Source of the DNA: a virus | Virus record (IMG/VR): IMGVR_UViG_3300006920_000118 | Location: 1 to 35,351 of that record | Reading direction: 5' to 3' (one strand) | DNA: 35,351 bases | In this document: positions 4,386-19,254 of the stretch, piece by piece | Position numbering within the stretch: the first letter of the stretch is position 1 | How the letters are laid out: every line of letters starts with the position of its first letter | Translations under genes and position numbers: made by a program | The notes under the pieces: model-generated | The model's input: only the letters and a program-made list of their open reading frames with translations | The model's database searches: none | What the model was told of the DNA's origin: nothing

Positions 4386-6288
4386 TAAAAATAAATACTC
4401 ATTTTCTTTTATCAGTTTTGATGCTCATAAACCGCCTGTAATTTTTGAAAAGAAAAATGCAGATTGGATCATATTTGGAGATGACAAAGAATATTATAAT
4501 AACTACCCTCAATACCTATTAGATAACTACAATAAGTCTGCTATCCATAATGCAATCTGCAATGGAAAGATTAACTACATTGTAGGAAGTGGTTTAGAGG
4601 TTAATTACTATACTGATGTTGCTAGTTTAGCAATGGCTAAAGGAACTATTAAAAGTGCTAACGAGTATGAGGATGCAGATGACTTAAATAGAAAGTTATC
4701 TACTGACTTAGTTTTATTTGGTGGTTTTTACGCTGAGTTAATACAGTCTAAAGACGGTAAAGGAATTAGCGCTTACCATTTATCATTTAATTATATTAGA
4801 CGTTCTAAGGAAGATGAAAGCGTTTGGTATTATACTAAAGATTGGGAATGTAGAAAGCCACAAGACAATGAAGATTTTAAAGAGTTTAGGACGTTTGAAG
4901 GAGAGTTTAAAAGCGGTGTTAACTACTTGGTTGACTATTCACTTTACAGAGCAGGAAATGAGCCTTATGCATTGCCAGACTATTTGGCTGCTAACAGTTA
5001 TATTGAGTTAGATTGGCGTATAGGTAATTTCTTGTTGAATAATGTTAAAAGTGGCTTTAGTGCTTCTTTCATAATTAACTTTCAGAACGGAACACCAACA
5101 GACGAGCAAAAGCAAGACATTGAAAGACAGTTAAAAAAGAAGTTCGGAGGAGATGACAACGGAGGTACTTTTGTAATTAACTTTACTGACCCTGACACGC
5201 CACCTGCAACTATTGACGTAATACCAACTAGCGGACATGACGATAGATTTAACACTTTAAAAGAAGCGGTTAGGGATAATCTTTTTACTTCTCACAATGT
5301 TACTAACCCTATGTTATTTGGTGTACGTGAAGCGGGTAGGTTAGGAGGGACTACAGAGGTAATAGAATCCTTTAACTTAATGCAGAACACTTATACTAAT
5401 AATAGACAAATATTATTAGAGAAGTTCTGGAATGACTTATTGGCATTTAAAGGAGTAGGTGCAAAAGTTGGAATTATTGAAGCGTTACCATTTGGGGAGA
5501 GTGAGAAAGTTAATGAGGTTGCTTTAGCACTTGGTACTTTATCGCCATTAGTTGCGACTAAGATATTAGAAGCGATGACTAACTCAGAGGTTAGAGCCTT
5601 GATTGGATTAGAGGGTTCTATTATAAGAACAGGAGATGCCAACCAAACTACTAGCAGTACAACAACTACTACTAACTTTTCCAAAGAAGATGAAGATAGT
5701 ATAATGTTAGACTTCTTTAATACTTGCGGTATAGATGACGATGAGTTAGAAGTAATTGAGAGCAGAGAATTAATGGCAAGTTCTATAGAAGATGCTGAAA
5801 GTCAAAGGTTAAACTTTGCTACTGTAACAGATTTACAAAGTCAGATATTAGCAATTATTGTTTCTAATCCTAATATGCCTGTGGCAGAGATAGCGGAAGC
5901 AATAGGAGAAACCCCAAGTGCTACTATGGATCAGATAGACATAATGCGAGCGAATGGATTAGTAGAGTTGAATAATGATAGTAACCCAGAGCCAACAGAA
6001 GAGGGTAAGAAAGAAAATGAAAGCGAAGTGTTTTTAGTTTATAAATATGACAAAAGACCTGACGTTTCTGGCGGTGCAATTATAGATACTACTAGAGATT
6101 TTTGCAAGCAACTCATAAGACTAAATAGAAGTTACACATTATCGGATATTAAAAGATTAAGAAACGGTCAAGGCTTAGACGTTTTTACAAGTCGTGGTGG
6201 TTGGTACACTAAGCCAGGAACTAATAATCACGTACCTTATTGCAGACACACATGGAAACAAAGACTAGTAAAAAGAAAGAAAAAATAA
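4378..6288 (+). CDS. Portal protein with C-terminal winged-helix and MuF-like extension
   Basis: The 636-aa protein is the portal, the dodecameric ring through which DNA enters and leaves the head. The first ~380 residues match portal character, including the stem region NPMLFGVREAGRLGG followed by TEVIESFNLMQNTYTNN (about 310-345). Residues about 395-430 are hydrophobic helix and are followed by a Thr/Ser-rich linker. A winged-helix-like segment (PNMPVAEIAEAIGETPSAT, near 500-518) follows. The last ~65 residues (FCKQLIRL..., GGWYTKPG, YCRHTW) resemble the C-terminal part of MuF-type minor head proteins, with a Cys/His pair. Portal-MuF fusions exist in Bacteroidota phages; the inserted HTH is less usual. 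A stand-alone mid-sized MuF gene is absent here, which supports the fusion. Confidence 0.8.
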   Translation: MDNKNKYSFSFISFDAHKPPVIFEKKNADWIIFGDDKEYYNNYPQYLLDNYNKSAIHNAICNGKINYIVGSGLEVNYYTDVASLAMAKGTIKSANEYEDADDLNRKLSTDLVLFGGFYAELIQSKDGKGISAYHLSFNYIRRSKEDESVWYYTKDWECRKPQDNEDFKEFRTFEGEFKSGVNYLVDYSLYRAGNEPYALPDYLAANSYIELDWRIGNFLLNNVKSGFSASFIINFQNGTPTDEQKQDIERQLKKKFGGDDNGGTFVINFTDPDTPPATIDVIPTSGHDDRFNTLKEAVRDNLFTSHNVTNPMLFGVREAGRLGGTTEVIESFNLMQNTYTNNRQILLEKFWNDLLAFKGVGAKVGIIEALPFGESEKVNEVALALGTLSPLVATKILEAMTNSEVRALIGLEGSIIRTGDANQTTSSTTTTTNFSKEDEDSIMLDFFNTCGIDDDELEVIESRELMASSIEDAESQRLNFATVTDLQSQILAIIVSNPNMPVAEIAEAIGETPSATMDQIDIMRANGLVELNNDSNPEPTEEGKKENESEVFLVYKYDKRPDVSGGAIIDTTRDFCKQLIRLNRSYTLSDIKRLRNGQGLDVFTSRGGWYTKPGTNNHVPYCRHTWKQRLVKRKKK

Positions 6289-6419
6289 GTTCTTACCAAA
6301 GACTTAAAAACAAGTTTGAACACTATAAAAACGGAGTAGAGGCAATGATAGAAAGACCGCATAGTAGTGAAGCAAAGAACTTTAGAATGAACTATAAATT
6401 AGAAAATGACTTAATGTAA
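6252..6419 (+). CDS. Small basic hypothetical protein (overlaps portal end)
   Basis: A 55-aa frame begins inside the last 37 bp of the portal gene and ends in a TAATG overlap with the next gene. It fills the 130-bp gap that would otherwise be empty. The product begins METKTSKKKEKISSYQRL and is Lys/Arg/Asn-rich and helical. The start-stop overlaps at both ends support translation. Function is unknown; a head-completion or DNA-contacting role is possible but not shown. Confidence 0.6.
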   Translation: METKTSKKKEKISSYQRLKNKFEHYKNGVEAMIERPHSSEAKNFRMNYKLENDLM

Positions 6420-6976
6420 TGGCGAACGTTTTATTTATAAGTGAAAGTTACTTAAAGAGTAATACCAACATAGACGAGAATGTAGATATTAAAGAGATAC
6501 TACCCGCTATTGCAGATGCTCAGGCTATGCACTTACTACCCGCTTTAGGTTCTGCTTTATACGATGACTTAAAGACTAAGATAGCAGCAGGAACTACCAA
6601 CGCAGACGAGGACACTCTACTAACAGATTTTATAGCACCTATGTTAACTAAGTTTGTGCAAATGGAGTTATCTAGTGATTTGCTTTTTAAGTATAGAGAT
6701 AAGGGCGTAATGACTAAGAGTAGCGAAAACTCACAGCCTGTAGACTATACTAAGATGCGTTACTTAATGGATAGATGGGATAATAAAGCACAATTCTATA
6801 AGAAGCGTTTAATAGATTATCTATGTGGTAATACTACTTTATTTCCTGCTTACTTACAAAGTCCTAACACTTGGGACGTTTTACCAGATACAGACGCATT
6901 TACTAACCCTTTTTATTTAGGCACGCAAACATGGGAAGAGAAAAAAGAAAAACTGAAACTAAGAGGAAGTTTGTAA
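6419..6976 (+). CDS. Head-tail connector-like protein (DUF6712 type)
   Basis: The 185-aa product has the helical N-terminal pattern of head-completion (gp6-like) connector proteins: LFISESYLKSNTNIDENV, then DIKEILPAIADAQAMHLLPALGS (about 27-48) and a Tyr-rich helical region (YKKRLIDYLCGN). This matches the DUF6712-type proteins that follow the portal in Bacteroidota phages. It would extend the portal ring as the first neck protein. The TAATG overlap with the preceding small gene and the next genes suggests one transcription unit. Confidence 0.65.
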   Translation: MANVLFISESYLKSNTNIDENVDIKEILPAIADAQAMHLLPALGSALYDDLKTKIAAGTTNADEDTLLTDFIAPMLTKFVQMELSSDLLFKYRDKGVMTKSSENSQPVDYTKMRYLMDRWDNKAQFYKKRLIDYLCGNTTLFPAYLQSPNTWDVLPDTDAFTNPFYLGTQTWEEKKEKLKLRGSL

Positions 6977-7056
6977 ACATAGACAAGAAATTAAAGAAAT
7001 ACTTTGATGTTAAACTACGAGAGAATAATAGAGGAAAGCAGAACCTTTGCAAATAA
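6931..7056 (+). CDS. Possible very small basic protein overlapping two genes
   Basis: A 41-aa frame (begins MGREKRKTETKRKF) bridges the end of the connector gene and the start of the next gene in another frame. It covers the 30-bp gap and overlaps both neighbours. The very high Lys/Arg content resembles the small basic frame at 6252-6419. The overlap pattern is suggestive but the frame is short, so it could be chance. Confidence 0.3.
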   Translation: MGREKRKTETKRKFVNIDKKLKKYFDVKLRENNRGKQNLCK

Positions 7057-7471
7057 CCACCAACAAATTAATAGTTTTGGTAATGGAGACCTTTGGGAGG
7101 TTGTGCAGCGTGATAAATTACAAGCGTATAACTACCCTTTATTATGGATGCAAGACAATGGTAGTACAGTTCAAGATAAAGCGGTATTCTTTAACTTTAA
7201 TATCTTTGGTATAGATCAAGTATTAAATGGAGAAGAAAACGAAAACTTTGTTAAGTCTAGTATGCACCAAATACTATTAGACTATCTAGCCTACTTTAAG
7301 CAAATAGTATTAACAGATATAGACGGCAATAGAATTAAATTTGATTTACAGTTAACCGCTAATTTAACAAGTTTTACAGAAAGGTTTAACGATGAATTAA
7401 CAGGATGGGTAATGACTGTAAGTTTTAAAACACCATTCACTTATAACAAGTGTAACATACCAGTATCATAA
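7007..7471 (+). CDS. Putative tail terminator / neck protein
   Basis: The 154-aa product starts at the ATG at 7007 (a TTG lies one codon earlier). It has the layout LWEVVQRDKLQAYNYPLLWMQ (broken at about 28-48), a middle strand-helix portion (FGIDQVLNGEENENFVKSS) and a C-terminal ERFNDELTGWVMTVSF stretch. That arrangement is typical of Bacteroidota phage proteins coded between connector and holin and thought to cap the tail or join it to the neck. Assignment is by pattern and position, not by a diagnostic motif. Confidence 0.5.
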   Translation: MLNYERIIEESRTFANNHQQINSFGNGDLWEVVQRDKLQAYNYPLLWMQDNGSTVQDKAVFFNFNIFGIDQVLNGEENENFVKSSMHQILLDYLAYFKQIVLTDIDGNRIKFDLQLTANLTSFTERFNDELTGWVMTVSFKTPFTYNKCNIPVS

Positions 7472-7971: not shown

Positions 7972-9072
7972 ATGACTAATAAAAAGATTTATGTAAATGA
8001 CCAAGATGCAAAAGCAGTTTTTGGTAAGGTTAATACAAACAGAAAGTACAGATTAAACCCTGAACAACTTCAAAGGTTGAACGAGTACAAAGCAAACAAG
8101 AACATTGCTATTTTAGGTTTAGAGAACCACGAAGGGCAAGCGACAAATAGTCCTTACTATTGGGATAAGTCAGATCCAAAATATAGTTTCTTTGTAAAGA
8201 ACCCGAACTTTAAGACAGAAGATAAAGACGACTTTGTAAGCGAGTTGTTAGAATCAATAAAAGGACACGAGCCTAAATATCCAAAGATAAAAAGGAAGTT
8301 AGAAAGTGAAGGACATTTATTAGTAGTAGACCCTGCTGACATCCACGTAGGTAAACTTGCTAGGGCTTTTGAGACAGGAGAAGAGTATAACGCACAAATA
8401 GCAGTACAACGTGTCTTAGATGGTGTTAAAGGAATTATAAAGAAGTCTAACGGTTTTAATATAGATAAGATATTATTTGTAGGTGGTAACGACATTTTAC
8501 ATATTGATACACCTCAAAGAAAAACAACAAGCGGAACTCCACAAGATACTGACGGTATGTGGTACGATAACTTTCTAATTGCGAAGAAACTTTATGTAGA
8601 TGTTTTGGAGATGCTTTTAACAGTTGCAGATGTTCACTTTGTATTTAATCCAAGTAACCACGATTATACAAACGGCTTCTTTTTGGCTGACGTAATAAGC
8701 ACTCACTTTAGAAACTGTAAAAACATTACATTTGATTGTAGCATAGCACATAGAAAGTATTACGCTTACGGTAAAAACTTAATTGGAACTACTCATGGAG
8801 ACGGTGCAAAACAACAAGACTTAGGTAGCCTTATGAGTATTGAAGCAAAAGACCTTTGGGCGTATGCTGAACACCGTTACTATTATACACATCACGTACA
8901 CCACAAAACAGCAAAAGACTTCATTAACGTAACTGTTGAGAGTTTAAGAAGTCCTAGCGGTTCGGATAGTTGGCATGATAGAAACGGTTACACTGGCGCA
9001 CCTAAAGCGGTTGAAGGTTTTATTCACCATAAGGACTTTGGACAAGTAGCAAGATTAACACATATATTTTAA
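7972..9072 (+). CDS. Calcineurin-like metallophosphoesterase (Mre11/SbcD-like fold)
   Basis: The 366-aa protein has the full set of binuclear-metal phosphoesterase motifs in order: DPADIHVG (about 119-126, D-x-H), VGGNDILH (about 169-176, in place of GDxxD), NPSNHDY (about 226-232, GNHD variant), GTTHGDG (about 272-278) and HHVHHK (about 307-312, GHxH variant). The metal ligands are kept although the glycines next to them vary. Members act on DNA ends or nucleotides. Place between holin and endolysin is odd for a nuclease, but such genes are common in Bacteroidota phages. Possible roles are DNA-end processing, host DNA degradation or phosphatase activity; substrate is unknown. Confidence 0.75.
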   Translation: MTNKKIYVNDQDAKAVFGKVNTNRKYRLNPEQLQRLNEYKANKNIAILGLENHEGQATNSPYYWDKSDPKYSFFVKNPNFKTEDKDDFVSELLESIKGHEPKYPKIKRKLESEGHLLVVDPADIHVGKLARAFETGEEYNAQIAVQRVLDGVKGIIKKSNGFNIDKILFVGGNDILHIDTPQRKTTSGTPQDTDGMWYDNFLIAKKLYVDVLEMLLTVADVHFVFNPSNHDYTNGFFLADVISTHFRNCKNITFDCSIAHRKYYAYGKNLIGTTHGDGAKQQDLGSLMSIEAKDLWAYAEHRYYYTHHVHHKTAKDFINVTVESLRSPSGSDSWHDRNGYTGAPKAVEGFIHHKDFGQVARLTHIF

Positions 9073-10886: not shown

Positions 10887-11396
10887 ATGAAACGACTGTT
10901 AAACGTACAGAAAGAAATCGGCACACTATCAAAGAGTGCTAAGAACCCATTTTTTAAAAGTCAATACTTAGACTTGACTACAATTATCCAACACGTTACA
11001 CCGCTTTTAAATGAGCAGGGATTAGTATTAATTCAGCCACTTGCAGGAGATAGCGTAACAACGGCTATTTTAGATAGTGAAACAGGAGAAGTAATAGCAA
11101 GTAGTAGCCTAACTTTAGCACCGATGGCAGACCCTCAAAAAATGGGAAGTCAAATTACCTACTTTAGAAGATACACTTTAAAGAGTTTACTAGCAATAGC
11201 GGAGGAAGATGATGATGGTAATAGAGCAAGTAGACCAACACCAAAGCCTAAGATGTCTAAAAATCATTTCGATACTATGTTAAAAGGTGAAGATATTAAC
11301 GACCTTAGAGAGGTTTTAAAGAACTACGATTTAACACCAGAACAAAAAGAAGCAATTACTAACAGAGGAAAAGAATTAAAAGATGGGAGCAAGTAA
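10887..11396 (+). CDS. ERF-family single-strand annealing recombinase
   Basis: The 169-aa protein shows the ERF-superfamily pattern: FFKSQYLDLTTIIQHVTPLL (about 22-41), the TAILDSETGEVIASS segment (about 58-72), GSQITYFRRYTL (about 86-97) and the acidic EEDDDGN (about 106-112). ERF proteins form rings that anneal complementary single strands and recombine phage DNA, often helping circularisation. The C-terminal third is a separate basic/acidic tail. An SSB homologue sits two genes downstream and NinG is further on, forming a recombination set. Confidence 0.88.
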   Translation: MKRLLNVQKEIGTLSKSAKNPFFKSQYLDLTTIIQHVTPLLNEQGLVLIQPLAGDSVTTAILDSETGEVIASSSLTLAPMADPQKMGSQITYFRRYTLKSLLAIAEEDDDGNRASRPTPKPKMSKNHFDTMLKGEDINDLREVLKNYDLTPEQKEAITNRGKELKDGSK

Positions 11397-12341: not shown

Positions 12342-12470
12342 ATGGATGAATTAGAAAACTTGAAAGCAGCCGTTATAGACTTCTTGGCTGAGTTAGAAAC
12401 TTACAACGTAGATATACCTGTTAAGTTATGGGAGCAAATGGATGAATTAGAACACCTTGTTAAAAAATAA
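12342..12470 (+). CDS. Small acidic hypothetical protein, 42 aa
   Basis: A 42-aa frame begins 4 bp after the preceding stop with an A-rich leader. The product (MDELENLKAAVIDFLAELE...) is a strongly acidic helix pair ending MDELEHLVKK. A small protein-protein adaptor or an anti-host factor would fit, but nothing specific is visible. The frame stays open for 29 more codons beyond its TAA, through the structured RNA. Confidence 0.5.
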   Translation: MDELENLKAAVIDFLAELETYNVDIPVKLWEQMDELEHLVKK

Positions 12471-12476
12471 ACAATA

Positions 12477-12577
12477 AAGCCGTCTATCTTCGATTTAACA
12501 CCGAAAGGATTAACTCAATTTATTAAGACTTCTAGCGGAAGAGTTCCACAACTAGATTAAAAAGATAGGCGGCTTTT
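12477..12577 (+). ncRNA. Structured RNA element with a 14-bp closing stem
   Basis: A 14-bp stem (12477-12490 with 12562-12575, one U-G) encloses 71 nt that hold two further hairpins. One is a GAAA tetraloop hairpin: TTAA/TTAA at 12495-98 and 12510-13, plus CC/GG at 12501-02 and 12507-08. The other is a two-part stem: TCTAG/CTAGA at 12531-35 and 12552-56, and inside it GGAA/TTCC at 12537-40 and 12544-47. Four U end the outer stem, so it may stop transcription weakly. It could be a stable ncRNA, a processed sRNA or a regulatory leader of the DnaA-like gene at 12594. Confidence 0.5.
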
Positions 12578-12593
12578 AATTAAAACTAAATAA

Positions 12594-12977
12594 ATGAATA
12601 TTGAAAGAATTAACCCGTACGTTTACGCTGGACTATCAGCACAGAAACAACAAGAAAGCAGAAAGAATAAAGTATCTTCACTTGATGTAGTGTTAGATTT
12701 TATCTGTGATAAGTTTGAAACAACTAAAGAAGATTTAAGAACTAGGAAAAGAAGCCGTGAGACGCACGTTTACCCTCGTAGAATGTTCTACTACCTTTCA
12801 AGGAAGTACACGCTTAACAGCGTAACTAAAATAGGTTTAACGCTACGACAAGACCACGCCACAGTTTTACATTCTATAAGCGAGTGCAAAAAGGATATTT
12901 CTTTTATTTACTCAGAAGAGGGTAAAAAGTTTGCTCAAATTGAAAAGGAGTTTAAAGAAAAATACAATTTAAATTAG
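12594..12977 (+). CDS. Stand-alone DnaA domain IV-like DNA-binding protein
   Basis: The 127-aa protein lacks the DnaA ATPase but has the DNA-binding domain IV. It has DVVLDFICDKFETTKEDLRT (about 31-50), RTRKRSRETHVYPRRMFYYL (about 49-68), then the signature RQDHATVLHSI (about 84-94), the form of the DnaA DHTTVLHA box-recognition motif. It would bind DnaA-box-like DNA at a phage origin or as a transcription regulator. The tandem boxes of this phage (TTATCACA at 16081) are near-matches to TTATCCACA, so a link is possible. It precedes the replication genes. Confidence 0.8.
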   Translation: MNIERINPYVYAGLSAQKQQESRKNKVSSLDVVLDFICDKFETTKEDLRTRKRSRETHVYPRRMFYYLSRKYTLNSVTKIGLTLRQDHATVLHSISECKKDISFIYSEEGKKFAQIEKEFKEKYNLN

Positions 12978-13160: not shown

Positions 13161-13364
13161 ATGATTATTAAATTTAACAGCGAACACATTAACTCAGTTA
13201 TTGAGGTTCAAAAATCAGACTATAAAGAAATAAGTGTTTTCATTACAAATAATGAAGATGGTCACGAGGCAGGCGTATTTCTAAATGAGCAAAGTATATT
13301 CCTTTTAATAGGTCAATTATTAAGACTTCAATCTGAAATAAAAAAGGAGGTTTCTAATGGCTAA
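13161..13364 (+). CDS. Small hypothetical protein of the replication operon
   Basis: The 67-aa protein starts at the ATG at 13161. The longer frame from 13101 runs through the leader hairpin and is unlikely. It is beta-rich (MIIKFNSEHINSVIEVQKS) followed by an amphipathic helix (SIFLLIGQLLRLQSEIKKE). It overlaps the replication protein gene by 8 bp. No family is recognised. Place in front of the replication genes is the only hint. Confidence 0.55.
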   Translation: MIIKFNSEHINSVIEVQKSDYKEISVFITNNEDGHEAGVFLNEQSIFLLIGQLLRLQSEIKKEVSNG

Positions 13365-15100: not shown

Positions 15101-15421
15101 ATGAACGTACAGATAACAAAGAACAACTTACTTTTAATAGTAAAGGAGTTGGAAACAAATAAAAAGCCAAGCGAGAAGTCTAAAGCATATTTACAGTTTA
15201 TTAAAGACGGTGTAATGACTATCGATATTCTAAACAATATGATAGACGATTTAAACAACACAATAGCGGTTAACTTTAGAAGCGAGGTAGTAAAGAAGAT
15301 AGACGAGAAACAAGCCTTTAGAAAGTTGAGAACTTTGGAGGATGAAAACAAGGAGTTAAAAGCAGAGATAAACCAACTAAAAGAGACTAACGATAAGTTA
15401 ATAAATCAAATTACCGTATGA
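15101..15421 (+). CDS. Coiled-coil hypothetical protein
   Basis: The 106-aa protein starts at the ATG at 15101, just after the ATPase gene. Its C-terminal half is a clear coiled coil (FRKLRTLEDENKELKAEINQ, about 74-93), with Leu/Ile spacing continuing to the end. The N-terminal half is helical with KKPSEKSKAYLQFIKDG. It overlaps the methyltransferase gene by ATGA. Function is unknown; a dimer or adaptor for replication is plausible. Confidence 0.55.
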   Translation: MNVQITKNNLLLIVKELETNKKPSEKSKAYLQFIKDGVMTIDILNNMIDDLNNTIAVNFRSEVVKKIDEKQAFRKLRTLEDENKELKAEINQLKETNDKLINQITV

Positions 15422-16065
15422 AATTATTAGACCTTTACGCAGGATCAAGAAGCATGGGAAAGGAAGCGGATAAACTAGGCTTTGATGTTTGCAGCGTAGA
15501 TATTAAACAGTTTGGAGATATTGACATAGTAATAGATATTGAAGAATTAACTATTGAGATGTTGCCATTTATACCTGATATTATTTGGTTAGGTATTCCT
15601 TGCACGTCTTGGAGTTTAGCAGGTATAAGTCACCATAGAAGAAACGGTATAGAACCTATAAGCGATTTTGCTAAAAAGTCTGATAGACTGCTTAATCATA
15701 ATTTAAAGTTGATAGAGGACTTGTTAAAAATTAACCCTAACTTGAAATGGTACTTTGAAAACCCTAGAGGATGCTTAAGAAATATGCCACAAATGAAACA
15801 ACTGCACCGTACAACTATTTGGTATTGCACTTATGGAGACTTTAGGGCAAAGCCAACTGACATATGGAGTAATAATATCTACACACCTTTATTTAATCCA
15901 CTAGGATGGAAACCAAGAGCAGAATGTTGGAACGGTAACAAAAACTGCCACCATGAAAGCGCACCAAGAGGAAGCAAAACAGGTACGCAAGGATTAAAGA
16001 ATAATCACGAACGGTCTAAAATGCCAGTAGAACTATGTAAAGAAATACTCAGTTACCACTTATAA
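15418..16065 (+). CDS. Short C5-cytosine DNA methyltransferase
   Basis: The 215-aa protein has motif I as DLYAGSRSMG (about 4-13), motif IV with the catalytic Cys as GIPCTSWSLAG (about 59-69) and motif VI as ENPRG (about 114-118). The length is far below full Dcm-type enzymes (about 350-400 aa). No normal target-recognition domain is seen after motif VI, and the typical QxRxR motif VIII is not evident. Short versions occur in many phages. It would methylate phage DNA against host restriction, or take part in further base modification next to the IbrA/IbrB genes. Confidence 0.75.
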   Translation: MKLLDLYAGSRSMGKEADKLGFDVCSVDIKQFGDIDIVIDIEELTIEMLPFIPDIIWLGIPCTSWSLAGISHHRRNGIEPISDFAKKSDRLLNHNLKLIEDLLKINPNLKWYFENPRGCLRNMPQMKQLHRTTIWYCTYGDFRAKPTDIWSNNIYTPLFNPLGWKPRAECWNGNKNCHHESAPRGSKTGTQGLKNNHERSKMPVELCKEILSYHL

Positions 16066-16123
16066 AGTATATTAACCGCTTATCACAATTTTAGATTTTG
16101 TAAGGTGGATAGTATTACTTTTG
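16055..16123 (+). promoter_or_regulatory. Tandem-box promoter B (ACCG boxes 20 bp apart plus TACTTTTG)
   Basis: ACCACTTATA at 16055 and ACCGCTTATCACAATTTTA at 16075 start 20 bp apart. TACTTTTG (16116-16123) follows 41 bp after the second box. There is no well-placed TTG. Its second box contains TTATCACA, close to a DnaA box. It would drive the modification island (16148 onward). Confidence 0.6.
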
Positions 16124-16147
16124 GAATATAAATTAAAAACAAAGATT

Positions 16148-16558
16148 ATGAATGAAAAAACAGATTTAAATAGGATTTACCACCATTACGAAATGTGGGA
16201 AGATTGGAAACACGGCTTTTATAATAATTCATCTGGTTCTGAAAAAGAAAAATTAAAGCAAAAAGCAATTAATATGTTTAATAGCGAAGAGTTGACTAAG
16301 CAAAACATGAAAAGAGTTATTGAAGAGTGGACTTGCTCCTGTGAACATAATTTAACAAACAACGGATTAAATAAGGTGGCTTACATTGGTCAAGCAGCTT
16401 GCTGTATATACGGAGGAGTTCCTTCAACTGTAACCATGGAGTGTTGGAGTTTATTATCTAAAGATGTGCAAGATAGATCAAACAAGATAGCGAAAGAGAT
16501 TATAAAAGAATGGATTGACAATAATAAAAACATACAATTATGCCTAAATATTTATTAA
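16148..16558 (+). CDS. Conserved phage protein of unknown function linked to IbrA-like genes
   Basis: The 136-aa protein starts at the ATG at 16148; an earlier ATG at 16121 lies in the predicted promoter. It has NRIYHHYEMWEDWKHGFYNN (about 8-27), a Cys-containing VIEEWTCSCEHNLTNNG and YIGQAACCIYGGVPSTVTME (about 80-99). Similar proteins with a QAACC core are, to my knowledge, common in prophages and lack a defined function. It overlaps the IbrA-like gene by 19 bp, so it probably belongs to the same system. The paired cysteines (AACC, SC) might bind metal or a thiol partner. Confidence 0.6.
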   Translation: MNEKTDLNRIYHHYEMWEDWKHGFYNNSSGSEKEKLKQKAINMFNSEELTKQNMKRVIEEWTCSCEHNLTNNGLNKVAYIGQAACCIYGGVPSTVTMECWSLLSKDVQDRSNKIAKEIIKEWIDNNKNIQLCLNIY

Positions 16559-17754
16559 AAAACAACGTACTAGAAGAGACTAGAGAAAGGGTTAAGTGGA
16601 CTTTTGACAACTTCAATAGAGTATATCTTTCTTTTAGTGCTGGTAAGGATTCAACAGTAATGCTTCACACGACTATGGAGGAAGCGAAAAGAAGAAACCA
16701 AAAAATAGGATTGCTAATAGTAGATTTAGAAGGTCAATATAAATTAACAATAGATCACATTTACGCTTGCATTGAAGAGTATAGAGAATGGATAGATTTA
16801 TATTGGGTTTGCTTGCCTATACATTTAAGAAATGCGGTTTCTGTTTATGAGCCTTTTTGGAAATGTTGGGACACAGAAAAGAAAGAAGATTGGATTAGAG
16901 AGCAGCCTAAAGAAGCAATAACAGACTTAAATTACTTCCCTTTTTTTAAAGATGGAATGGAGTTCGAGGAGTTTGTCCCAGAGTTTGGGGAGTGGTATTC
17001 TAATGGCGAGTTAACTGCTTGTTTAGTTGGTATAAGAACGGATGAAAGTTTAAATAGGTATAGAACTATTGCAAGTGATACTAAAGTAAAACTACAAGAT
17101 AAGTCTTACACTACTAAGGTAACAGAAAATGTTTTTAACGTATACCCAATATACGATTGGAGTACTAAAGATATTTGGATATACCACGCTAAGGACACAA
17201 CCAAAAGGTATAATCAACTTTATGAATTAATGCATAAAGCAGGTTTGTCAATATCCCAACAAAGGATTTGCCAACCATACGGAGACGATCAAAGAAGAGG
17301 GTTATGGCTATTCCATTTAATAGAACCAGAAACTTGGTGTAAGGTAGTTGCGAGAGTTAACGGAGCAAATAGCGGCGCTCTATACGTTAATGAAAGTGGA
17401 AGTGTAAACGGTTATAATAAAATTACAAAACCGTCAGGACATACTTGGGAAAGTTTTTCAATGTTATTTCTAAATAGCATACCATACAAAACAAAAGAAC
17501 ATTATTTAAACAAGATATACACTTTTATTAAGTGGTGGGAAGAGAGAGGTTATAGTAATGGAATACCAGACGAAGCACCTTATATTTTAGAGAGTAAAAA
17601 GTTAGCCCCTAGTTGGAGAAGAATTTGTAAATCGTTATTAAGAAATGACTATTGGTGCAAGGGGTTAGGATTCACACAACACAAAACAGACGCTTATAAG
17701 AAGTATTTAGAATTAAAAAAGAAACAAAGAGAATTGTCTAAATTTTTGAAATAA
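16540..17754 (+). CDS. ibrA: IbrA-like PAPS-reductase-family protein (DUF3440 type)
   Basis: The 404-aa protein belongs to the PP-loop ATP pyrophosphatase / PAPS reductase superfamily. YLSFSAGKDSTVMLHTTMEE (about 29-48) holds the SGGxDS-like PP-loop, VDLEGQYKLTIDHI follows near 62-75, and IRTDESLNRYR lies near 164-174. The length and C-terminal part (SISQQRICQPYGDDQRRGL, then NGANSGALY) match DUF3440/IbrA proteins (about 400 aa). E. coli IbrA with IbrB activates prophage eib genes; the chemistry is unproven. Here it is followed by a PD-(D/E)XK nuclease and an IbrB-like gene, all overlapping. A sulphur- or adenylation-based nucleic-acid modification is a plausible inference. Confidence 0.82.
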   Translation: MPKYLLKNNVLEETRERVKWTFDNFNRVYLSFSAGKDSTVMLHTTMEEAKRRNQKIGLLIVDLEGQYKLTIDHIYACIEEYREWIDLYWVCLPIHLRNAVSVYEPFWKCWDTEKKEDWIREQPKEAITDLNYFPFFKDGMEFEEFVPEFGEWYSNGELTACLVGIRTDESLNRYRTIASDTKVKLQDKSYTTKVTENVFNVYPIYDWSTKDIWIYHAKDTTKRYNQLYELMHKAGLSISQQRICQPYGDDQRRGLWLFHLIEPETWCKVVARVNGANSGALYVNESGSVNGYNKITKPSGHTWESFSMLFLNSIPYKTKEHYLNKIYTFIKWWEERGYSNGIPDEAPYILESKKLAPSWRRICKSLLRNDYWCKGLGFTQHKTDAYKKYLELKKKQRELSKFLK

Positions 17755-18269
17755 TGGTATCAGTAACTAAATTAATATCCATATTAGATAAACCTGCTCT
17801 ATTGGGTTGGGCTAATAAAATAGGCTTACAAGGAATTAGATTAAAAGACTATCAATCAAAATCAAAGAAAGGGGGCAACATAAGACATAAAGAAGTAGAG
17901 GATTACTTAAATCACGGAATAGAGTTTAAAGGCTTTGAAAAGTTAAAAGAAACTTTAAAAAGTTACAAGGTTTTAGGGTCTGAGGTAGATGTAAACAATG
18001 GATTTATATTAGGTCGAATAGATATTGTTTTAGAAAAAAATAAAAAGAAATATGTTTGCGATTTAAAATCCAGTAAGTATATTTACATTTCTACAAAGTT
18101 ACAGTTATCAGCATACAAACACTTATTAAAAGCTGATTACATATGTTTTATAAATACAGAAGATTTAGAGTTAAAAATAATAGATATAGACACCTCTAAA
18201 TACTTTGAAATAATTAAAAGACTATATCAAATACATAAATTAATAACAAGTTTAAACGAAAAATTATGA
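17754..18269 (+). CDS. PD-(D/E)XK nuclease, RecB/Cas4-like
   Basis: The 171-aa protein shows the RecB-type nuclease order: RHKEVEDYL (His, about 43-51), GRIDIVLEKNKKKYVCDLKS with the metal-binding Asp of GRID and the DLK triad (about 87-106), and QLSAY (about 117-121). It is a bare nuclease domain without helicase. It lies between the IbrA- and IbrB-like genes with 1-bp and 4-bp overlaps, so it is translated with them. Such enzymes may trim ends, cut unmodified DNA or aid recombination. Its place suggests a link with the modification pair. Confidence 0.78.
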   Translation: MVSVTKLISILDKPALLGWANKIGLQGIRLKDYQSKSKKGGNIRHKEVEDYLNHGIEFKGFEKLKETLKSYKVLGSEVDVNNGFILGRIDIVLEKNKKKYVCDLKSSKYIYISTKLQLSAYKHLLKADYICFINTEDLELKIIDIDTSKYFEIIKRLYQIHKLITSLNEKL

Positions 18270-18931
18270 TTGAATTAACAAAAGATGAAAAAACATTGCT
18301 AGAGAAAATGAGTGATGTTAAAACCGCACTAAGATACTCTTCATTAGATAATAAGGTGCATTTAATAAATGAATTTAAAAAAATGATGCACGAAATTAGT
18401 CCATTCAAAACCGAACCAGTAGATTGTGTTTTGTGGGTTAAAAATGATACGGTTGCTGCAAACAACTACAACCCTAATTCAGTTGCTCCGCCCGAAATGG
18501 AATTGCTAAGACTTAGCATATCTAACGATGGCTACACGCAACCGATAGTAAGCATGGATAATTCAGACGGTACTAGAGAGGTTATAGATGGATTCCATAG
18601 AAATAGAGTTGGGAAAGAATGTCAAGACATACAAAGCAGAGTGCATGGTTATTTACCAGTTGTAACAATAAGAGAAAGTCAAAAGGATTTAAACAATAGA
18701 GTTGCTTCTACTATACGTCATAATAGAGCAAGAGGAAAGCATGGAGTAGAAAGCATGAGTGATATAGTTGTTGATCTTAAAAAAAGAAATTGGTCTCCAG
18801 CAAAAATATCAAAAGAATTAGGTATGGATTCTGACGAAGTTCTTAGGCTTTCTCAAATATCTGGATTACTAGAAATGTTTTCAGACGGTGAATTTTCTAA
18901 AGCTTGGGACGTGAAAGAGGATGCAGAGTAA
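18266..18931 (+). CDS. ibrB: IbrB-like ParB/sulfiredoxin-fold protein
   Basis: The 221-aa protein has the ParB-like fold at its core: DCVLWVKNDTVAANNYNPNS (about 53-72), then MELLRLSISNDGYTQPIVSM (about 76-95) and the signature VIDGFHRNRVGKE (about 105-117, G-x-H-R). It is followed by RHNRARGKHGVESMSDIVVD (about 151-170) and an HTH-like helix pair (SPAKISKELGMDSDEVLRLS). This matches IbrB, which works with IbrA. ParB-fold proteins bind CTP or act as nucleotide kinases, so a nucleotide-linked role is possible. It directly precedes the MazG-like gene. Confidence 0.82.
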   Translation: MIELTKDEKTLLEKMSDVKTALRYSSLDNKVHLINEFKKMMHEISPFKTEPVDCVLWVKNDTVAANNYNPNSVAPPEMELLRLSISNDGYTQPIVSMDNSDGTREVIDGFHRNRVGKECQDIQSRVHGYLPVVTIRESQKDLNNRVASTIRHNRARGKHGVESMSDIVVDLKKRNWSPAKISKELGMDSDEVLRLSQISGLLEMFSDGEFSKAWDVKEDAE

Positions 18932-18933
18932 TT

Positions 18934-19254
18934 ATGAAAAAATTAATATTAAAATGGGCTGATGAACGAGGTTTGTTAGTTCAAGGAAACGAAAGAAACC
19001 AATTAATTAAACTATATGAAGAAGCGGGGGAATTATCCTCCGCTATTCTTAAAGATAACCAAGAAGAGGTTAAAGATGCTTTAGGAGATATACAGGTAGT
19101 TTTAATTATACTTGCAAATCAATTAGGCTATGACTTAGACGAATGTTTAGAAGAAGCGTATAATGTGATTAAAGATAGGCAAGGTAAAAAAGTAAATGGG
19201 ATATTTATTAAGAATTATGAAACAAGAAATAAACCAACTAACAGAAATAATTAA
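18934..19254 (+). CDS. MazG-like NTP pyrophosphohydrolase
   Basis: The 106-aa protein starts at the ATG at 18934, 2 bp after the IbrB-like stop. It has the all-alpha NTP-PPase pattern LYEEAGELSSAILK (about 26-39, the EExxE metal site) and EVKDALGDIQVVLIILAN (about 45-62, the ExxD site), with a further NVIKDRQGKK motif typical of MazG. It hydrolyses NTPs or dNTPs to monophosphates; in phages it cleans or balances nucleotide pools or lowers ppGpp. Next to the modification genes it may remove unwanted nucleotides. Confidence 0.8.
   Translation: MKKLILKWADERGLLVQGNERNQLIKLYEEAGELSSAILKDNQEEVKDALGDIQVVLIILANQLGYDLDECLEEAYNVIKDRQGKKVNGIFIKNYETRNKPTNRNN

Follow-up and report, generated by a model that had tools for sequence, protein, structure and literature searches.

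Gene Content of the IbrAB Locus

The whole stretch analyzed here, hereafter the window, is the 35,351-base IMG/VR record IMGVR_UViG_3300006920_000118 (positions 1–35,351) of an uncultured virus, in which portal, terminase, lysis, and replication genes were found. Four overlapping or touching genes at 16148–18931 encode the QAACC protein, IbrA, a nuclease, and IbrB. The features of the region are as follows:

15418–16065, + strand: short C5-cytosine-methyltransferase-like protein (phrog_757, 5.8e-25, full length); neighbor, not core
16097–16123, + strand: TTTG / TACTTTTG boxes with 15-nt spacing; possible weak promoter
16148–16558, + strand: QAACC protein, 136 aa from the ATG at 16148; proposed third Ibr component (linkage, fusions)
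16540–17754, + strand: IbrA, DUF3440 PP-loop protein, 404 aa (PF11922; phrog_2302, 4e-84)
17754–18269, + strand: compact RecB-type PD-(D/E)XK nuclease, 171 aa, RecB/Cas4-like (phrog_298, 6e-9; PF12705, 0.002)
17749–18229, + strand: stretch absent from the close relative L021, which has a nuclease-less operon (alignment of L021 and window)
18266–18931, + strand: IbrB, predicted ParB fold and KorB-like DNA-binding domain, 221 aa (phrog_2159, 3e-68)
18934–19254, + strand: MazG-like pyrophosphohydrolase (PF12643, 1.6e-8); neighbor, not core

QAACC and ibrA overlap by 19 nt, ibrA and the nuclease gene join at TAATG, the nuclease gene and ibrB join at ATGA, and ibrB and mazG are 2 nt apart, while 82 nt separate the end of the methyltransferase-like gene from the QAACC ATG. 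An alternative QAACC start at TTG 16121 is unlikely because of the in-frame ATG at 16148. The initial annotation had described this run together with the upstream methyltransferase, and family matches and coordinates place every named gene there. Of its tandem-box promoter, the boxes themselves exist (TTTG at 16097 and TACTTTTG at 16116), but the canonical pattern is absent: the Bacteroidota-type pattern with a spacing of 19–23 nt was not found at this site, and scans with simple promoter consensus sequences remained near chance level. A promoter at 16097–16123 is doubtful because the 15-nt spacing is shorter than usual. Elsewhere in the window, a DNA repair exonuclease (phrog_704; 7972–9072) is encoded just upstream of the endolysin gene, outside the replication region, and its family (c16) recurs in several IbrAB contigs.

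Loci and contigs of relatives are denoted by L numbers. Counts refer to the loci listed in each scan (at most 80), from which records very near the window may be missing; the loci are related by phylogeny and the contigs are fragmentary, and E-values and counts are non-independent.

The methyltransferase and MazG had also been counted as parts of the island. The methyltransferase-like protein scored 18.9 bits against PF00145, below the cut-off of 22, and its phrog_757-type family occurs in seven loci at variable distance, while MazG adjoins the module in just one contig besides the window. In L021, neither gene lies beside QAACC-ibrA-ibrB in that part of the contig, and the module instead adjoins sequence matching window positions 12469–12600 and 13285–13348. 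Based on the L021 alignment and the few neighboring loci, both genes were rejected as core parts.

Predicted Folds of IbrA and IbrB

IbrA matches PF11922 (DUF3440) with 123.3 bits against a cut-off of 25, and 145 of 152 IbrA sequences contain the SxSxGKDS loop. The nearest structures to its AF2 model (pLDDT 88.5) are FAD synthase (Z 15.4), APS/PAPS reductases (Z ~13.5–15), and ATP sulfurylase (Z 14.5), and the loop and structural matches together indicate a PAPS reductase-like PP-loop fold. These three kinds of enzyme bind oxyanions in the form of adenylyl compounds. The PP-loop and residues R166, E169, S170, and R173 are invariant in 83 IbrA sequences, and this conserved catalytic set suggests that IbrA is an enzyme. 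The same 83 sequences share no invariant cysteine, and ECG(L/I)H, the catalytic motif that reductases have close to the C-terminus, occurs in none of the 152. A redox PAPS reductase (CysH) was therefore rejected, as the catalytic cysteine motif is missing. The PHROGs label for this family (phrog_2302) is phosphoadenosine phosphosulfate reductase, an auxiliary metabolic gene, despite the absent motif.

In several divergent IbrA loci (L142:5294–5563, L158:1456–1725, L263, L276, and L285–L291), the IbrA profile also matches an additional ORF of some 90 residues, which usually lies between QAACC and ibrA. In L017, the match of a related ORF (5925–6578) covers IbrA residues 323–399, and the additional ORF may represent the IbrA C-terminal domain in a second, separate copy. 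In Pseudomonas phage Amjad_SA (L005:6209–8167), which has IbrB-QAACC-IbrA, an unannotated protein of 652 residues is encoded directly 3′ of ibrA with a 1-nt overlap.

The structure of IbrB was taken from the model of an IbrB-QAACC fusion protein of the relative L011 (pLDDT 87.7), whose pTM of 0.53 makes the domain placement uncertain. The IbrB part resembles KorB (Z 14), superposing on a ParB N-domain at 1.6 Å over 93 residues and on the KorB DNA-binding domain at 1.0 Å over 57 residues. A ParB N-domain fold and a helix-turn-helix DNA-binding domain were thus both found on this model, and IbrB is predicted to combine a ParB/KorB-like nucleotide-binding fold with a KorB-like DNA-binding domain. 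The window IbrB scored 19.1 against PF02195, below the cut-off of 26.3, and carries DGFHR at the position of GERR, the corresponding ParB motif.

KorB and Noc are DNA-binding regulators, and the predicted ParB/KorB/Noc-like fold with its DNA-binding domain would suit a role of IbrA-IbrB-QAACC in regulating phage gene expression or replication, with the nuclease, controlled by this regulator, serving in DNA processing or host takeover. Such a role agrees with the original description of IbrAB in E. coli as co-activators of prophage genes, which the title of Sandt et al. (2002), as cited in PMC10434257, gives as activation of prophage eib genes. We nevertheless consider it improbable, as the invariant PP-loop catalytic set points to an enzyme and regulation alone leaves the repeated recruitment of RecB-type nucleases (see below) unexplained.

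QAACC as a Proposed Third Component

The association of QAACC with IbrA-IbrB, suggested by the initial annotation, proved near-universal in the phage loci sampled. Among 80 viral loci listed for the IbrA profile, 70 have QAACC, which is directly upstream of ibrA in all 70 and usually touches or overlaps it (median gap -10.5 nt). The QAACC-profile search listed 79 loci, with ibrA present in all 77 that are untruncated; the other two end just after QAACC. Eighteen fusion proteins carry QAACC at the C-terminal end of IbrB, and distances among ibrA, ibrB, and QAACC correlate (r 0.74–0.82). Conserved residues include E27, W70, N84, and G90. For 12 members, a Pfam search at E 0.01 found nothing and a PHROG search gave a single marginal match. 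Modeled within the IbrB-QAACC fusion, the domain is all-helical (pLDDT ~97), and none of the PDB matches listed covers it well. By its linkage, QAACC is a predicted and previously undescribed third component of the IbrA-IbrB operon in IMG/VR phages; it occurs in three of 80 IbrAB loci from cellular genomes.

In some phage loci that lack QAACC, another conserved protein of about 120–140 residues overlaps the ibrA start (L003:571–948, L067:1280–1645, L089:4228–4605, L096:1787–2596, and L097:5627–6055). It contains motifs such as GWVAxITGF and SRGIxxxY and is possibly a replacement partner.

A Compact Nuclease Linked to IbrAB

A scan based on nuclease motifs only identified 31 new loci, which together with the window and L027 form a set of 33 at 167 bits or more (approximately 22 clusters at 70% identity). 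All 33 nucleases have the GxxD, DxK, and Q..xY active-site motifs of the RecB-type PD-(D/E)XK family, and all 33 loci have ibrA within 2.1 kb, counting L270 and L282, where just a partial ibrA lies at the locus edge. Among weaker relatives (81 bits or less), ibrA was present in one of 22, at a distance of 4.7 kb. The compact nuclease occurs in just eight of the 80 IbrA loci listed. Its insertion between ibrA and ibrB, which had seemed unusual in the window, recurs, bringing the total to six contigs (window, L261, L265, L285, L286, and L287); in other loci it follows ibrB, follows ibrA where genes are fused, or precedes the module. Other genes also enter this junction, since L046 has an acetyltransferase-like ORF (6746–7258) between ibrA and ibrB.

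The compact nuclease belongs to the same superfamily as the RecB/Cas4-like phage exonucleases (phrog_298), shares a KPALxxWA motif with longer relatives (L019/L020), and has a weak profile match to MGME1. It differs from the phrog_298 exonucleases in its size (171–190 aa), its lack of the Cas4 cysteine cluster, and its confinement to IbrAB operons. The window nuclease scored 32.1 bits against Cas4 (TIGR00372, cut-off 65), and family members mostly have one to three cysteines (range 1–5) and lack the four-cysteine iron-sulfur arrangement. No match to it was found in 50,697 records of cultured phages, and 395 genomes from the phylum of Myroides yielded only seven weak matches (76 bits at best), with scores like those of the longer relatives. 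A literature search found no paper linking IbrAB with a nuclease.

Exchange of Nucleases at a Fixed Operon Position

Two further families of RecB-type nucleases are associated with the same operon. Of 30 high-scoring c17 loci, 23 have the nuclease gene directly next to ibrB or ibrA, compared to none of 50 weaker ones, and family c11 occupies the slot in 19 of 21 loci at 280 bits or more compared to none of 14 weaker ones; a few of these 19 are slightly further off, and the remaining two loci are cut at contig edges. No two of the three families occur together in any of 117 loci, some of them shared between scans. Close IbrA relatives have different nucleases (e.g., L009/L103, L016/L437, and L263/L358). 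On a tree of 171 IbrA sequences, the compact nuclease shows at least 18 state changes (shuffled mean 23.6), c17 shows 10 (shuffled 20.0), and c11 shows 7 (shuffled 11.7). These patterns indicate non-orthologous exchange of the three families at a fixed operon position, as judged from gene order and the IbrA tree, and 176 of 234 dereplicated IbrA have none of the three.

L021 is the nearest relative of the window (IbrA 95%, IbrB 94%, and QAACC 84% identical). Its positions 309–1933 align with window 16131–17755 and its positions 1927–2618 with window 18229–18921. L021 most likely lost the nuclease alone while keeping IbrAB, because the end of its ibrA directly joins a remnant matching the last bases of the window nuclease gene. 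IbrAB without a nuclease thus occurs, whereas the nuclease was not seen without IbrAB in the 33 high-scoring loci, which fits the prediction for a nuclease paired with a protective modification.

Chance proximity in a mosaic phage genome would be a very improbable explanation for the whole arrangement; MazG and the methyltransferase do look like chance neighbors, but the linkage counts contradict this for QAACC and the nucleases. The exchange within the slot is instead read as functional coupling of the nuclease to IbrAB, which we consider highly probable. Exchange could also reflect a shared need for one exonuclease in a recombination region.

The main and a serious rival follows from this latter point, namely that the nuclease is a recombination exonuclease partnering an ERF-type annealing protein, and is close to IbrAB through a shared replication/recombination region or the same pathway. 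The window encodes ERF (10887–11396), SSB, and NinG, although the ERF gene is not adjacent to the nuclease, and the compact nuclease is the sole RecB-type nuclease detected in most large contigs. Nuclease distances also track those of ERF (r 0.85, nine contigs) better than those of IbrA (r 0.21), which favors recombination; the weak coevolution with IbrA was read as repeated exchange and is compatible with either explanation. However, ERF is found in eight of 27 contigs with the compact nuclease and RecT in one of 17, these being fragment contigs, whereas ibrA is found in all. Moreover, a separate YqaJ-type exonuclease coexists in L261, L095, L285, and L288–L290 and directly follows ERF in L129 and L159, and L021 lost its nuclease while keeping IbrAB. 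On balance, recombination appears an unlikely, if substantial, alternative.

A conserved core flanked by interchangeable effector nucleases is a typical feature of defense systems, and the exchangeable slot would accordingly suit a role in superinfection exclusion, in which the phage-borne module defends against competing phages, IbrAB acts as a sensor rather than a modifier, and the nuclease is the effector. This seems quite improbable: PADLOC returned weak superfamily matches only (to DndC, BrxP, Cas4, and DruK) and left IbrB and QAACC unmatched, the module is part of the early replication region, and a nuclease is absent from many of its copies.

Comparison With Known Systems

The same pairing of a DUF3440 PP-loop protein with a ParB-fold protein is found in E. 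coli as IbrA-IbrB of ECOR-9 and YbdN-YbdM of K-12, the ybdNM operon having been described in PMC9068703. The enterobacterial loci found keep ibrA-ibrB, and cellular pairs, unlike the phage operon, are mostly without QAACC and nuclease.

DNA phosphorothioation offers a likeness in its PAPS reductase-type PP-loop protein with a ParB-superfamily partner; DndC works with DndB in this way, and nucleases are linked to the system (PMC10853773). However, IbrA scored 24.6 bits against the DndC equivalog TIGR03183 (cut-off 290.4) and lacks an invariant cysteine, and no DndD or DndE was seen. The Dpd system for 7-deazaguanine modification of DNA includes the ParB-like DpdB (PMC12839542), which is the point of likeness, but the core genes here do not include DpdA. 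In Fusobacterium phage phiFN37 (L008:9751–11036), IbrAB occur together with a second ParB-like gene and a queuine tRNA-ribosyltransferase gene approximately 3 kb away, a pair reminiscent of deazaguanine DNA modification.

Potential Function of the IbrAB Module

We know of no biochemical activity for IbrA or IbrB. From gene linkage, exchange in the slot, nuclease loss in L021, and predicted folds, we infer that the operon may encode a DNA modification system. Judged by these folds, the operon combines genes for a nuclease and an adenylate-type enzyme with those for a DNA-binding subunit and a helical, linker-like one. QAACC, IbrA, and IbrB would form one DNA-directed enzyme complex, with the nuclease as an exchangeable fourth part. 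IbrB may bind DNA through its KorB-type helix-turn-helix domain and a nucleotide through its ParB-type domain, and QAACC may link it to IbrA. Using ATP in the PP-loop site, IbrA would activate a carbonyl group or oxyanion by adenylation, DNA being the most likely carrier of this group. The nuclease would then attack unmarked DNA of the host or a competing phage, or intermediates, and be kept only where IbrAB is present. We hold this full reading, an adenylating (modification) complex directed at DNA and equipped with an exchangeable nuclease, tentatively, at somewhat under even chances.

A more specific form of it, rather unlikely in our estimation, is a phage modification-and-restriction system of new chemistry, in which QAACC-IbrA-IbrB installs a PP-loop-dependent mark and the interchangeable nuclease destroys unmarked DNA. 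A modification complex with a nuclease for unmarked DNA would explain why the nuclease was not seen without IbrAB and why IbrAB persists without the nuclease. Against modification stand the nuclease-less majority of dereplicated IbrA and the scarcity of QAACC in cellular pairs.

IbrA and IbrB occur widely among phages and bacteria, and phage databases annotate the former as a PAPS reductase and the latter as a partition protein. Their fixed third partner and a refillable nuclease slot provide a first functional handle on IbrAB, and IbrAB, QAACC, and the nuclease probably act on DNA together. If this is true, the module would represent a new pathway for modifying or processing DNA, and even a negative outcome would correct many annotations.
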